Shown here piece after piece: positions 31,241-35,644 of a DNA stretch of 35,644 bases. How positions within the stretch are numbered: the first letter of the stretch is position 1; the number at the start of each line of letters is the position of its first letter. The translations under genes and the position numbers were made by a program. This DNA is from a virus, in the IMG/VR virus record IMGVR_UViG_3300031772_000136, positions 1-35,644 of that record; one strand, written 5' to 3'. The notes beneath the pieces are model-generated. The model had not been told where the DNA came from. It did no database searches and saw only the letters and a list, made by a program, of their open reading frames with translations.

Positions 31241-32223
31241 TAACCCTCCTTTTTGTCGTCTTTTGGTAGGAAGGTCTGAACCTCAGCTCCGAGATCTCGC
31301 AGGGTTCCCTTGTCGTCACCGTTTCCCCGCGTGGGTTTCCATTTCTTCTCAAATACCGGCCAGTGGTCAACTTGTCCGGCATCCTTGAACGCTACATAGG
31401 CTTGATCCATCAGGGTGTCAAACTCCTCCAGGGATTCGATGGGCCAGGAAACCCCGGAAACCTGAGATTCTTTTTTCTTTCTGATAGTGGGTAACGGCGC
31501 TTCTTCAATGATTTCTGATTCTATAATATCTTGAGTTTCTTCAGCGCTTTGTAATCCCATTAAAAGTTCTGGAGCATATATTTTTCCAAAAAACGACGCG
31601 GCACGGTATCTCAGCATGATTTCCGGCATCGTTTTCCATTTACTGCCTTTTTTTTGAATCCACCCTTCATCAACTGCCATCTGAATAGACACTTCGGGGC
31701 TTTCCAGGCGTTCACCCGTGGCTTTTTCGATTACCCAGGCGATGCAGGACCGATGCCGAATTTTCATACTGCCGGTTTTCTCAACGGGCATCTTCTTTCC
31801 TGCGTTGCGGGGGTTATCTATCCATTCCGTGTAGGTGTAAGGCGCTTCTTCCTCGGGACCCACTTCGGAAAAACTGAATCGGAGCGGGCTGAATTTCCCG
31901 CACTGATTGATAGACGCTATGATGTAAACACTTGACCAGCTTGGCCTCCCTTCGATGATATGGAGGTTTTGCATGATCATTAGTGGATCTGCATTCATCC
32001 GGCTAGCCATATTCAACGCAACAGCACAGTTTGCCAAACCGTTTGGGTTTTCGGTGACAGTGCCTTCCTTGTCTGCCGTAAATCTCCGGTAGGAGACAGG
32101 TACGAGGGTAGAACTGCTGAGAACATTGGACGCTCTTAAAAGTGCATCCATTCCTTCTTTAGTGTCAAATCCTAATCGGATTTCCTGATTTTCTCGCGTG
32201 TTAAGGGCGGTTTCGTCGGCCAT
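31240..32223 (-). CDS. RecT-like single-strand annealing protein
   Basis: A 327-aa protein with the core pattern of phage annealing recombinases related to RecT: NCAVALNMASRMNADPLMIMQNLHIIEGRPSWSSVYIIASINQCGKFSPLRF, then a WAV-type strand and MPEIMLRYRAASFFGKIYAPELLMG. These proteins coat ssDNA and anneal complementary strands in replication-linked recombination. The C-terminal third is charged and variable. It is coupled by TAATG to both neighbours. No exonuclease partner of the RecE/lambda Exo type was recognised beside it. Confidence 0.75.
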   Translation of the reverse strand: MADETALNTRENQEIRLGFDTKEGMDALLRASNVLSSSTLVPVSYRRFTADKEGTVTENPNGLANCAVALNMASRMNADPLMIMQNLHIIEGRPSWSSVYIIASINQCGKFSPLRFSFSEVGPEEEAPYTYTEWIDNPRNAGKKMPVEKTGSMKIRHRSCIAWVIEKATGERLESPEVSIQMAVDEGWIQKKGSKWKTMPEIMLRYRAASFFGKIYAPELLMGLQSAEETQDIIESEIIEEAPLPTIRKKKESQVSGVSWPIESLEEFDTLMDQAYVAFKDAGQVDHWPVFEKKWKPTRGNGDDKGTLRDLGAEVQTFLPKDDKKEG

Positions 32224-33044
32224 TATCTGCCTCCAATGGATTGTTCTGCGTAGAATTCAACGCCTGGGATTGTCTGGGCACCCTTCGTTGTCCGGGCGGT
32301 GGAACCAAGAAGCTGTTCGTTGGGGAGCAGGTATTCCCTGGGCACCAGATTCAGGTCAACTATTCGGAATTTCCAGGTAGTTCGATAGCTCGTACCCGCT
32401 GCGGTGATTTTGGGCGCGGCGGCAGTCATCACGGCACGGGGCGCAAGCGCGGCTTCCCTCAATGCATCCTCGGCTGCCAGCTTGGCGGCTTCAGCGTCGG
32501 CTTCAGCCTGGGCGGCCTGCTGTTTCGCCACGAAGGCCGCAACGGGGTTTGCTTCGGCTTCCGCTTGGGCTATTCTCTGCGCAGCGGCTTCTTGCTCTTT
32601 TCGAGCGGCTTCCAGGCGGTCCATTTCCTCTTGGGCTTTGGCGCGGGCTTCCGCTTCAATCCTTTCGCGTTCTTTCCTTGCGGTGTCCTCCGCTTCCTTG
32701 CGTTGCCTGGCTTCCTCCTGCTTGTAGGCGAGCATGCCCTGCTCGTAAGGCTTCAAGGCTTCCTCTAAGGTATCTTTGATGCGTTTAAAATCAGCATTGA
32801 TGAGTCTCAAAGTCTCATTTATCGGACCGGTGCGTTTGACCCGCTCGGCTTCGGTAATTTTGATCATGTTTTTTATCTGTGAGAAGTCAGCACTGGCTTT
32901 CACATAGTCTTCTGTTGTCCTGACTATTACCATTTTGGCCTTGGTTAATATGGTTTTGGCTTCAAGGTCCAAGTTCTTTATTTCCTGTTTTTCTGGTGTT
33001 TCTTCCTGAAGTAATTCAGGGATGCAATTCTGGATGGATTCCAT
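32223..33044 (-). CDS. Coiled-coil partner of annealing protein
   Basis: A 273-aa protein. Residues ~30-110 are a conserved-looking helical N-domain; ~105-215 is a long Ala/Glu/Arg coiled coil; the last ~60 residues (SYRTTWKFRIVDLNLVPREYLLPN, and AQTIPGVEFY) form a compact domain that recurs in phage proteins encoded beside annealing proteins. Its function is unknown, possibly structural support for recombination. TAATG coupling with GGAGG before ATG 33044. Confidence 0.65.
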   Translation of the reverse strand: MESIQNCIPELLQEETPEKQEIKNLDLEAKTILTKAKMVIVRTTEDYVKASADFSQIKNMIKITEAERVKRTGPINETLRLINADFKRIKDTLEEALKPYEQGMLAYKQEEARQRKEAEDTARKERERIEAEARAKAQEEMDRLEAARKEQEAAAQRIAQAEAEANPVAAFVAKQQAAQAEADAEAAKLAAEDALREAALAPRAVMTAAAPKITAAGTSYRTTWKFRIVDLNLVPREYLLPNEQLLGSTARTTKGAQTIPGVEFYAEQSIGGR

Positions 33045-33419: not shown

Positions 33420-33479
33420 GTGATGATGTTGTGGTTGCTAAGCGTTCAATTCCTAAATATGGGGGAGTTGGGCGCTTTT

Positions 33480-33659
33480 TTACCCGTCCCCGTCCCCGAA
33501 CTCGTCCCCGAACCCGAACCCGGACCCTGACCCGTCCCCGTCCCCGAACCCGAACCCGGACCCTGACCCGTCCCCGAACCCGTACCCTGCCCCGTCCCCG
33601 AACCCGAACCCGGACCCGGACCCTGACCCGTCCCCGGATAAAACTTTTACATCCGCCAT
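33480..33659 (-). CDS. Gly-X repeat protein, copy 1
   Basis: A 59-aa ORF, again MADVKVLS then Gly-X with Phe common (GFGFGDG), ending at TAA 33480-33482. Same ribosome site as the other copies. It is the shortest array. Its stop lies about 60 bases before the zinc-ribbon gene. Confidence 0.45.
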   Translation of the reverse strand: MADVKVLSGDGSGSGSGFGFGDGAGYGFGDGSGSGFGFGDGDGSGSGFGFGDEFGDGDG

Positions 33660-33712
33660 GTGGGTACTCCCTCAAGACTTTTACGCGCAATTTCGGGGAG
33701 TTGGGCGCTTTT

Positions 33713-33940
33713 TTACCCGTCCCCTGACCCGTCCCCGAACCCGTCCCCGGACCCTGACCCGTCCCCGTCCTCGTCCCCGGACCCTGACCCGTCCCCGTCC
33801 CCGGACCCTGACCCGTCCCCGAACCCGGACCCTGACCCGTCCCCGAACCCGAACCCGTACCCTGACCCGTCCCCGGACCCGTCCACGGACCCGTACCCTG
33901 ACCCGGACCCGGACCCGGATAAAACTTTTACATCCGCCAT
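33713..33940 (-). CDS. Gly-X repeat protein, copy 2
   Basis: A 75-aa ORF with the same start context (GAGGGAG, 7 bases, ATG) and the same first eight residues MADVKVLS. It then runs as Gly-X to a TAA in the shared boundary block. A GTG for GGG substitution gives one Val and a GAG gives one Glu; the frame is otherwise unbroken. It probably arose by tandem duplication of copy 3 with its ribosome site. Confidence 0.45.
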   Translation of the reverse strand: MADVKVLSGSGSGSGYGSVDGSGDGSGYGFGFGDGSGSGFGDGSGSGDGDGSGSGDEDGDGSGSGDGFGDGSGDG

Positions 33941-33993
33941 GTGGGTACTCCCTCAAGACTTTTACGCGCAATTTCGGGGAGTTGGGCGCTTTT

Positions 33994-34230
33994 TTACCCG
34001 TCCCCTGACCCGGACCCTGACCCGTACCCGTCCTCGTCCCCGGACCCTGACCCGTCCTCGTCGTCCCCGTCCCCGTACCCTGACCCGTCCCCGAACCCGG
34101 ACCCTGACCCGAACCCGTACCCTGACCCGTACCCTGACCCGTCCCCTGACCCGTACCCTGACCCGTCCCCGGACCCGGACCCTGACCCGTCCCCGGACCC
34201 GGACCCGGATAAAACTTTTACATCCGCCAT
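33994..34230 (-). CDS. Gly-X repeat protein, copy 3 (first in operon)
   Basis: A 78-aa ORF reading MADVKVLS then (Gly-X)n, X being mostly Ser, Asp, Tyr or Phe, ending GDG-stop. GAGGGAG lies 7 bases before ATG 34230. The start overlaps the end of the upstream gene by 13 bases. One internal 3-base insertion gives a DDED stretch without shifting the frame. All regular Gly codons are GGG, which points to DNA or RNA structure as a possible driver in place of the protein. Translation is not proven. Confidence 0.45.
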   Translation of the reverse strand: MADVKVLSGSGSGDGSGSGSGDGSGYGSGDGSGYGSGYGFGSGSGFGDGSGYGDGDDEDGSGSGDEDGYGSGSGSGDG

Positions 34231-34634
34231 GTGGGTACTCCCTCAAGACTTTTACGCGCAATTTCTTTGCAAGGAGTTTTTTCGATCACATTAAAAATGT
34301 CCTTTTCGATTTCTGGCATAGCAAACCTACAATTTGAAGGGTCGGGTGTGCCTTCTTGTGATAATTGTGATAGGGATGCACCAAACCATTTATGCATTCT
34401 GATCGAATTTAAAAGGGTTACTTTCCGGGCAATATCATCTTGAAATTTAAGATACCCGCAAAAACATCCAGCATCGTAAGAGCGTATAATAACAAAGGGA
34501 TAGCCTTCTGGCGAATATGCAAATACACTTTCACTATTGTATTTTTTAATATATAGTTTTTCTATTGCTGATTTTTTGATATATTCTTCTCCATTTATTA
34601 CAAAAACTTCAGTTAAAAAAATTTCGTTATCCAT
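34218..34634 (-). CDS. Hypothetical protein, first gene of leftward recombination operon
   Basis: A 138-aa protein (MDNEIFLTEV...) with GAGGAGA before ATG 34634; the open frame continues upstream but without a site. Beta-rich first half (EVFVINGEEYIKKSAIEKLY..., YPFVIIRSYDAG), then a helical C-terminus ending GVPTWRM. Its last ~50 bases are the block copied into the repeat region twice more. AT-rich compared with downstream genes. No family recognised. Confidence 0.65.
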   Translation of the reverse strand: MDNEIFLTEVFVINGEEYIKKSAIEKLYIKKYNSESVFAYSPEGYPFVIIRSYDAGCFCGYLKFQDDIARKVTLLNSIRMHKWFGASLSQLSQEGTPDPSNCRFAMPEIEKDIFNVIEKTPCKEIARKSLEGVPTWRM

Positions 34635-35436: not shown

Positions 35437-35610
35437 ATGCCTGATCGAACTCGTAAGATTTCAGACCAACAAATAGAGCCCTTGGTGATCGTTTTGCCAG
35501 TCGCCACTATCCGGTTCCTGGATGCCCATGCAAAAAAAATAGGACTCACGCCCAGCGCCATCATAAAAGGGGCACTGAGCGTCTATAAAATCAGAGAGGA
35601 TACCCGGTGA
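35437..35610 (+). CDS. Ribbon-helix-helix-like DNA-binding protein
   Basis: A 57-aa protein starting at ATG 35437, two bases after the preceding stop, and crossing the point where the circle was opened. The pattern VIVLPVATIRFLDAHAKKIGLTPSAIIKGAL matches a CopG/Arc-type ribbon-helix-helix: a short strand, then two helices with conserved hydrophobics. These dimers bind operator DNA, and Arc/Mnt regulate P22. It is coupled by TGATG to the RusA-like gene. Confidence 0.7.
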   Translation: MPDRTRKISDQQIEPLVIVLPVATIRFLDAHAKKIGLTPSAIIKGALSVYKIREDTR

Positions 35611-35644
35611 TGCCAGACGCCGTAACTACAGAAAAAACACCCAG
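35518..35644. repeat. Terminal direct repeat, right copy
   Basis: Right copy of the 127-base terminal overlap described at the left end. Joining the two copies restores an uninterrupted small gene and its TGATG coupling to the RusA-like gene. This supports circular closure or circular permutation (headful packaging would give permuted ends in a P22-type phage). Confidence 0.95.
35610..35644 (+). CDS. RusA-like resolvase, 5' part (duplicate of left-end copy)
   Basis: The first codons of the RusA-like gene, present again because of the 127-base terminal overlap. The complete gene is at 93-497. Confidence 0.85.
   Translation, partial: MPDAVTTEKTP

Follow-up and report, generated by a model that had tools for sequence, protein, structure and literature searches.

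The DNA considered here raises a plain question: are three tandem arrays of a six-base repeat, found in a viral genome, genes, and what could their products do for the phage? The window (the whole stretch of DNA that was analysed, 35,644 bases, which is also the whole virus record) carries a 127-bp direct terminal repeat at 1-127 and 35518-35644, which marks it as a complete assembly, circular or circularly permuted. Its genes for terminase, portal, major head protein and head closure are of the P22 podovirus type. No direct DNA similarity to phage records was found, and the exact start-block pattern of the arrays was absent from the viral contigs searched.

Three Gly-X reading frames behind a DUF6948 gene

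The arrays and their surroundings are organised as follows.

34218..34634, minus strand: upstream partner, DUF6948 (PF22253), 138 aa, Pfam score of 51.4 bits against a cut-off of 27, predicted Sm/LSm-like barrel
33994..34230, minus strand: Gly-X ORF copy 1, 78 aa, MADVKVLS and about 35 units, start codon within the DUF6948 stop region
33713..33940, minus strand: Gly-X ORF copy 2, 75 aa, about 33.5 hexamers, from ORF calling and repeat comparison
33480..33659, minus strand: Gly-X ORF copy 3, 59 aa, about 25.5 hexamers, from ORF calling
33976..34265, minus strand: higher-order repeat unit 1, 290 bp, made of 35 nt before the ATG, the Gly-X ORF and an 18-nt tail after the stop
33695..33975, minus strand: higher-order repeat unit 2, 281 bp, from copy comparison
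33462..33694, minus strand: higher-order repeat unit 3, 233 bp, from copy comparison
32223..33044, minus strand: exonuclease-type PHROG match (phrog_10477), downstream of the arrays, at the same position in the relative L004
31240..32223, minus strand: RecT-like ssDNA-annealing protein (phrog_561, 6e-69), downstream and on the same strand as the arrays

The three arrays, noticed in a preliminary description of this DNA, are real, lie on the minus strand with lengths of about 35, 33.5 and 25.5 hexamers, and are recovered independently by Tandem Repeats Finder. As that description had it, every copy shows the same GAGGGAG-N7-ATG, the same start (ATGGCGGATGTAAAAGTTTTATCC, MADVKVLS) and a common end block (GGGTAAAAAAGCGCCCAACTCCCC), the only odd insertion is of 3 bases (one extra GAC, in copy 1), and the higher-order unit duplicates the 3' end of the upstream gene together with the ribosome site. 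These last elements make up the 35 nt before the ATG. The three copies have the same sequence over these 35 nt, over the 27 nt that begin with the ATG and over the 18 nt that follow the stop, and depart from one another in the arrays, in length as well as in order. The glycine codon is GGG throughout and X is GAC, TCA, TCC, TTC or TAC, with rare GAG, GTG and GCA. The encoded proteins, in which glycine takes every second position, are acidic, with a net charge of -9 to -13, and from their composition are almost certainly disordered. The last 13 nt of the DUF6948 gene overlap the first Gly-X ORF. A hexamer array of this kind is open in every frame, as is the case here ('RVRV' ORFs in the other frames), so that the open Gly-X frame alone is no coding evidence, and the indication that the arrays of the window would be translated comes from the sequences of their relatives.

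Pairing of the two genes across phages

In one such relative (L004) the DUF6948 protein is 84% identical, the downstream genes are the same, and one Gly-X ORF (MEDLEYDGSGSGWGLGSKYGYSF...) stands in place of three. Its hexamers are GGC-TCC/TTC/TAC, against GGG-TCA/TCC/GAC in the window, and the Gly-X frame is unchanged; relatives of this kind, with another unit sequence and a kept frame, are those that the preliminary description had proposed to look for. A scan of viral contigs with the pattern (GGNKHN)12 returned many short stand-alone ORFs in which X is almost exclusively Ser, Tyr or Asp; (GV)n, (GA)n and (GS)n matches were other repeat kinds or antisense frames and were set aside. With a DUF6948 profile seeded with the window and L004 proteins and iterated over the retrieved loci, a DUF6948-like ORF was detected directly upstream of, or overlapping, the array in about 45 of the 62 scanned loci, those without a detected partner being mostly at a contig edge or having a more divergent partner by eye. 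In the reverse test, the DUF6948 alignment alone gave 548 viral relatives, and among the best 80 of these 548 a Gly-X ORF lies directly downstream in all 80 loci, 2 of these being truncated where the contig ends. A second upstream family, of divergent sequence (RGWIFAGDV type), tied to DUF6948 by profile comparison (86.6%, E 4.5e-6) and with no Pfam match, is followed by Gly-X in 77 of 80 loci; in the other 3 the contig runs out within the opening codons of Gly-X. As a control, none of the 209 other genes of the first sample precedes a Gly-X ORF.

The commonest layout is the 13-nt overlap seen in the window. The relative frame from DUF6948 to Gly-X is +2 in 35, +1 in 12 and 0 in 2 of the measured cases, and in L061 both are fused in frame into one ORF. 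Programmed frameshifting as the general mode is rejected because of the mixed frames and the good start codons; such varying frames make separate initiation, with translational coupling, the likelier route. There is very little doubt that the arrays are copies of the second gene in a two-gene unit conserved among phages, the first being DUF6948; the window has an extra-copy version of this second gene, which is normally single. The coding reading of the preliminary description is strongly supported by these relatives; that the gene is normally single, and that it is tied to the DUF6948 gene upstream, had both been overlooked.

Several loci depart from the common form. In some pairs (MT835900, MT836871) the Gly-X stretch is merely short and is attached to another domain. 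Gly-X carries a conserved C-terminal domain 'IDD..T.I..FAHGETL..A...WHH.LTGSC..GR' in L038, L097, L100, L234, L249 and L257; this domain has no Pfam or NCBIfam match and a homologue of it also occurs in Tetrasphaera phage TJE1. Another C-terminal domain, 'LHAT..P.KW..ER.W.VA..GEV..D..K.GAL.R.I.GE', follows Gly-X in L051 and L096 and has no Pfam match either. In MW202478 (L256) the array comes before, not after, the DUF6948-like gene, and upstream of 2977 in L124 several in-frame stops interrupt the DUF6948-like sequence, possibly in a phage with a reassigned stop codon. The Pfam matches of Gly-X proteins to TrAA12 (16 bits in the window and 32 bits in one Gly-X protein, against a cut-off of 30.9) were rejected as low-complexity matches.

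The pair is also carried by cultured phages: Pectobacterium phages Ymer, Sabo, Koroua, Pappous, Taid, Abuela and Amona, Dickeya phage Setonix, Vibrio IKEMa6-1, Chlorobiaceae CV-1-33, Eggerthella PMBT5, Rheinheimera Barba, whose upstream gene was found in 115 genomes, and Iodobacter phiPLPE, where Gly-X is unannotated and recE and RecT genes come next. Since such phages carry the pair, the Gly-X gene, the exact copy number of the window aside, is no assembly artefact, and the pure artefact that the preliminary description had kept in mind is excluded. The hosts belong to Pseudomonadota, Bacteroidota, Bacillota, Chlorobiota, Actinomycetota and Acidobacteriota. In bacterial genomes the family was found in 1 of 369 and 2 of 398 (samples that include the seed genome); the PF22253 cut-off was passed in all 6 bacterial genomes with the pair and in none of the 14 control genomes. 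The pair is a phage gene family, rare in bacterial genomes. The Bacteroidota matches of the genome scan were set aside, being mostly (GY)n C-terminal tails of bacterial tyrosine kinases (Wzc type, by sequence), whose Gly-Tyr repeats are matched by the same DNA pattern; unlike the stand-alone ORFs of 59-78 aa in the window, these tails belong to a large kinase, have Tyr only and come without DUF6948. Kept in 157 of the 160 sampled loci (3 are cut off) across hosts of six phyla, the pair must be useful.

The genes around the pair often encode an exonuclease, RecT/Erf, SSB, helicase loaders or methyltransferases, and their company suggests that the pair acts during phage DNA metabolism; the association with recombination genes is suggestive and not invariant. 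Two temporal expression clusters are described in the main text of the Barba paper.

Being of low complexity, the Gly-X half is invisible to homology searches, and the gene goes unannotated, is called in a wrong frame or is misnamed. Public records hold arrays read in the wrong frame ('MAMAMAL...') or labelled 'lamprin' or 'adsorption protein' (L250:4349-4594; L256:1505-2077; L436:1749-2063; L437:2291-2617). In the mainly open-access literature that was searched, neither the term DUF6948 nor a matching phage Gly-rich repeat gene was found, and the genome papers of Ymer and Barba make no mention of glycine. In the parts consulted of a survey of prokaryotic and phage low-complexity regions (PMC6821194), the gene pair was not met; aromatic residues are given there as under-represented in such regions, which are Gly-rich like the Gly-X proteins, whereas in the latter Tyr makes up 24-48% of X. 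The two-gene unit is apparently undescribed, an earlier description being possible.

Predicted fold of the partner and possible roles of the pair

For DUF6948 (PF22253), of which the upstream gene of the window is a member, Pfam gives the domain only, with no function, and neither an obligate Gly-X partner nor an Sm-like fold was met in any description found. The AlphaFold2 model of the window protein, built with 57 relatives, reached a pLDDT of 88 and a pTM of 0.75. When this model was compared with VIA-align, the top 50 rows were all Sm/LSm proteins with Z of 6.2-7.1, a range (Z below 8) that can mean a common small-barrel arrangement only, and with Foldseek Sm/LSm proteins took nearly all top ranks (best E 4e-3). 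The structural neighbours include an archaeal Sm protein with poly-U and the phage protein 3BY7, and Sm-like and Hfq-like phage proteins were returned from a viral structure library. The known phage Sm-like proteins (PDB 3BY7; Synechococcus phage S-CAM3; the Hfq-like protein of Tonenili) are neighbours in structure but have little sequence similarity to DUF6948. At the sequence level, the Ymer homologue has a weak match to Ataxin-2 SM (0.034), the window protein matches no Pfam Sm/LSm family at E 0.1, no Arg-Gly motif of the Sm2 type is evident by eye, and a profile search of solved structures gave no credible match. The model of the divergent upstream family is of low confidence (pLDDT 60) and has the same strand order. 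Because the E (4e-3) and Z (about 7) are moderate, we regard the Sm-like barrel as the most likely predicted fold of DUF6948, not as proof of membership.

An Sm-like barrel with a low-complexity tail has well-known counterparts, such as SmD1 and SmB with their Gly-Arg tails. The phage pair, with its predicted Sm-like barrel and disordered partner, fused in frame in L061, resembles Sm, LSm and Hfq proteins with tails of this kind; it differs from them in that the phage tail is normally a separate gene, has Gly-Ser/Tyr/Asp and not Gly-Arg, and is hypervariable.

We tentatively propose, as somewhat short of probable, that a co-translated, acidic, Tyr-bearing disordered partner clusters or regulates a nucleic-acid-binding Sm-like protein; the interaction, the binding and the assembly are what we infer here. 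Both proteins would be made together, because the second gene starts within the end of the first. The Sm-like protein would assemble, probably as a ring, and would bind RNA or single-stranded DNA in the DNA-metabolism phase of the phage. The Gly-X protein would act as its detached low-complexity tail, in which the evenly spaced tyrosines could serve as stickers and Gly, Ser and Asp as spacers and charge, and it may draw the complexes together into a dynamic assembly, or else adjust how they bind nucleic acid. Hexamer slippage or recombination would change the array rapidly while function is kept, since only composition and length would need keeping, and extra gene copies, 3 in the window and 5 in L092, would raise the dose. 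A simple charge-driven co-assembly is not obvious because DUF6948 proteins are not markedly basic (they are near neutral, with a median net charge of +1), and charge-driven pairing was set aside as unsupported. Condensate formation by Gly-X is plausible. We hold doubtful the further speculation that the pair is a widespread organising system of phages, in which an Sm-like ring protein and its co-translated, hypervariable Gly-[Ser/Tyr/Asp] partner would condense on RNA or single-stranded DNA soon after infection begins, and in which evolution could adjust the material properties of the condensate through the length and order of the array. With the pair recognised, the function of DUF6948 becomes testable for the first time.

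The main rival to such an assembly is a regulator like a detached Hfq tail, in which the Gly-X protein would be a soluble, acidic, disordered competitor on the nucleic-acid surface of the Sm-like ring, speeding release or raising selectivity with no condensates. The C-terminal tail of Hfq is disordered, has an acidic tip, is a competitor of RNA at the rim and changes more rapidly in evolution than the core does (PMC6561178), and both the predicted fold of DUF6948 and the acidic, disordered composition of Gly-X would fit. We nevertheless consider this role unlikely: a phosphate mimic needs no Tyr, which in Gly-X is as frequent as Asp and makes up 48% of X in the second family, and the acidic residues that sit at the tip in Hfq are spread along Gly-X.

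Turnover of the arrays between phages with identical neighbours, and a distribution limited to phages, would also suit a host-facing decoy or counter-defence, in which Gly-X binds or saturates a host factor, an arms race drives the change of the arrays, and DUF6948 is a delivery or folding partner. There is a precedent in TifA, a small RNA-binding phage protein that sequesters a toxin within a ribonucleoprotein complex (PMC10853763); for the assembly that we favour, too, TifA is instructive, in that a small phage protein can act through large RNA-protein assemblies. Yet the composition of X is constant across very different hosts, as an arms-race interface would not be, and the pair has no match of credible score among the PADLOC profiles, which model defence and not counter-defence; a decoy thus appears rather improbable.

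Copy number and turnover of the arrays

Returning to the clustering or regulating partner that we favour, the presence of three copies in the window is to be considered together with the way the arrays change. Short-read metagenome assembly can err on near-repeats of 230-290 bp and the closest relative is single-copy, so that the number of copies in the window, not the gene itself, could be an artefact of assembly. This is improbable, for tandem Gly-X copies occur elsewhere, from two (in 4 of 59 loci) to five (in L092), and the three arrays of the window differ in length and order. The five copies (L092:1660-2968) are complete tandem ORFs with identical ends (MGLKAFLKFG ... EPNLTSAGATVVEE) and different arrays, a parallel to the window.

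The turnover was followed in 47 pairs whose DUF6948 is at least 94% identical. The arrays differ in length in 31 of them, by multiples of 3 in all 31 and by multiples of 6 in 30, and the frame-breaking variants that the preliminary description had named as telling against its reading were found in none of these 31 pairs. Because hexamer slippage by itself yields steps of 6, these are weak evidence of selection when taken alone. Among cultured phages, the DUF6948 genes of Ymer and Amona are identical and that of Taid is one base off (99.7-100% identity), and their Gly-X proteins are of 73 (Ymer), 67 (Amona) and 85 aa (Taid) with a different residue order. In six Barba genomes the upstream gene is identical, and the arrays differ by one hexamer or by single X residues.

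Over 57 arrays (1908 units), X is Ser in 43, Tyr in 24, Asp in 23, Phe in 4 and Asn in 3 percent. Within arrays, entropy averages 0.89 bits at the first base of X and 1.08 bits at the second, against 0.14 at the third base of Gly and 0.19 at that of X; the invariance of Gly itself is no evidence, because the units were defined by flanking glycines. Silent sites are thus homogenised within arrays but differ between phages, the glycine codon being GGC, GGT or GGG, and replacement sites keep the Ser/Tyr/Asp mixture. This placing of the variation, with X variable and silent positions nearly fixed within arrays, is stronger evidence than the length steps and points to selection acting at the protein level; from a neutral array the mixture should disappear. 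In the second family, a short basic C-terminus is kept in many Gly-X proteins and is a further signal at the protein level.

An element acting as DNA (a recombination hot spot, a G-quadruplex tract or a regulatory repeat with incidental translation) is very improbable. The GGGN3 repeat of the window could in principle form G-quadruplexes and recombination genes lie near the arrays, but GGC or GGT takes the place of GGG in most relatives, so that neither the unit nor its G-runs are conserved. Conservation lies instead in the Gly-[SYD] pattern, kept in a single frame after a coupled start codon, and in the basic tail of many second-family proteins. The G-quadruplex reading was dropped on the ground that GGC is used in most relatives, as was the comparison with non-coding G-rich repeats (e.g. 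the GGGNATC quadruplex), the third bases of Gly and X varying while the protein pattern is kept. A selfish or neutral microsatellite, that is slippage-prone hexamers persisting without function after DUF6948, would explain why nearly all indels are of one or more hexamers but is scarcely credible, since the array is present at 157 of 160 loci with the remaining 3 cut by the contig end, and since drift should have reduced a neutral array to a single hexamer or let it decay, whereas a three-letter mixture at X is kept over homogenised silent sites.

With composition under selection and order and length free, the arrays offer a clean natural system for the cellular role of a minimal sticker-spacer protein, and natural array variants on an identical background exist in culture. 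In the second family, where Tyr makes up 48% of X, two members (L363, L387) are followed by Gly-Thr arrays (GTGTGT...), in which the frame or the choice of X may differ.
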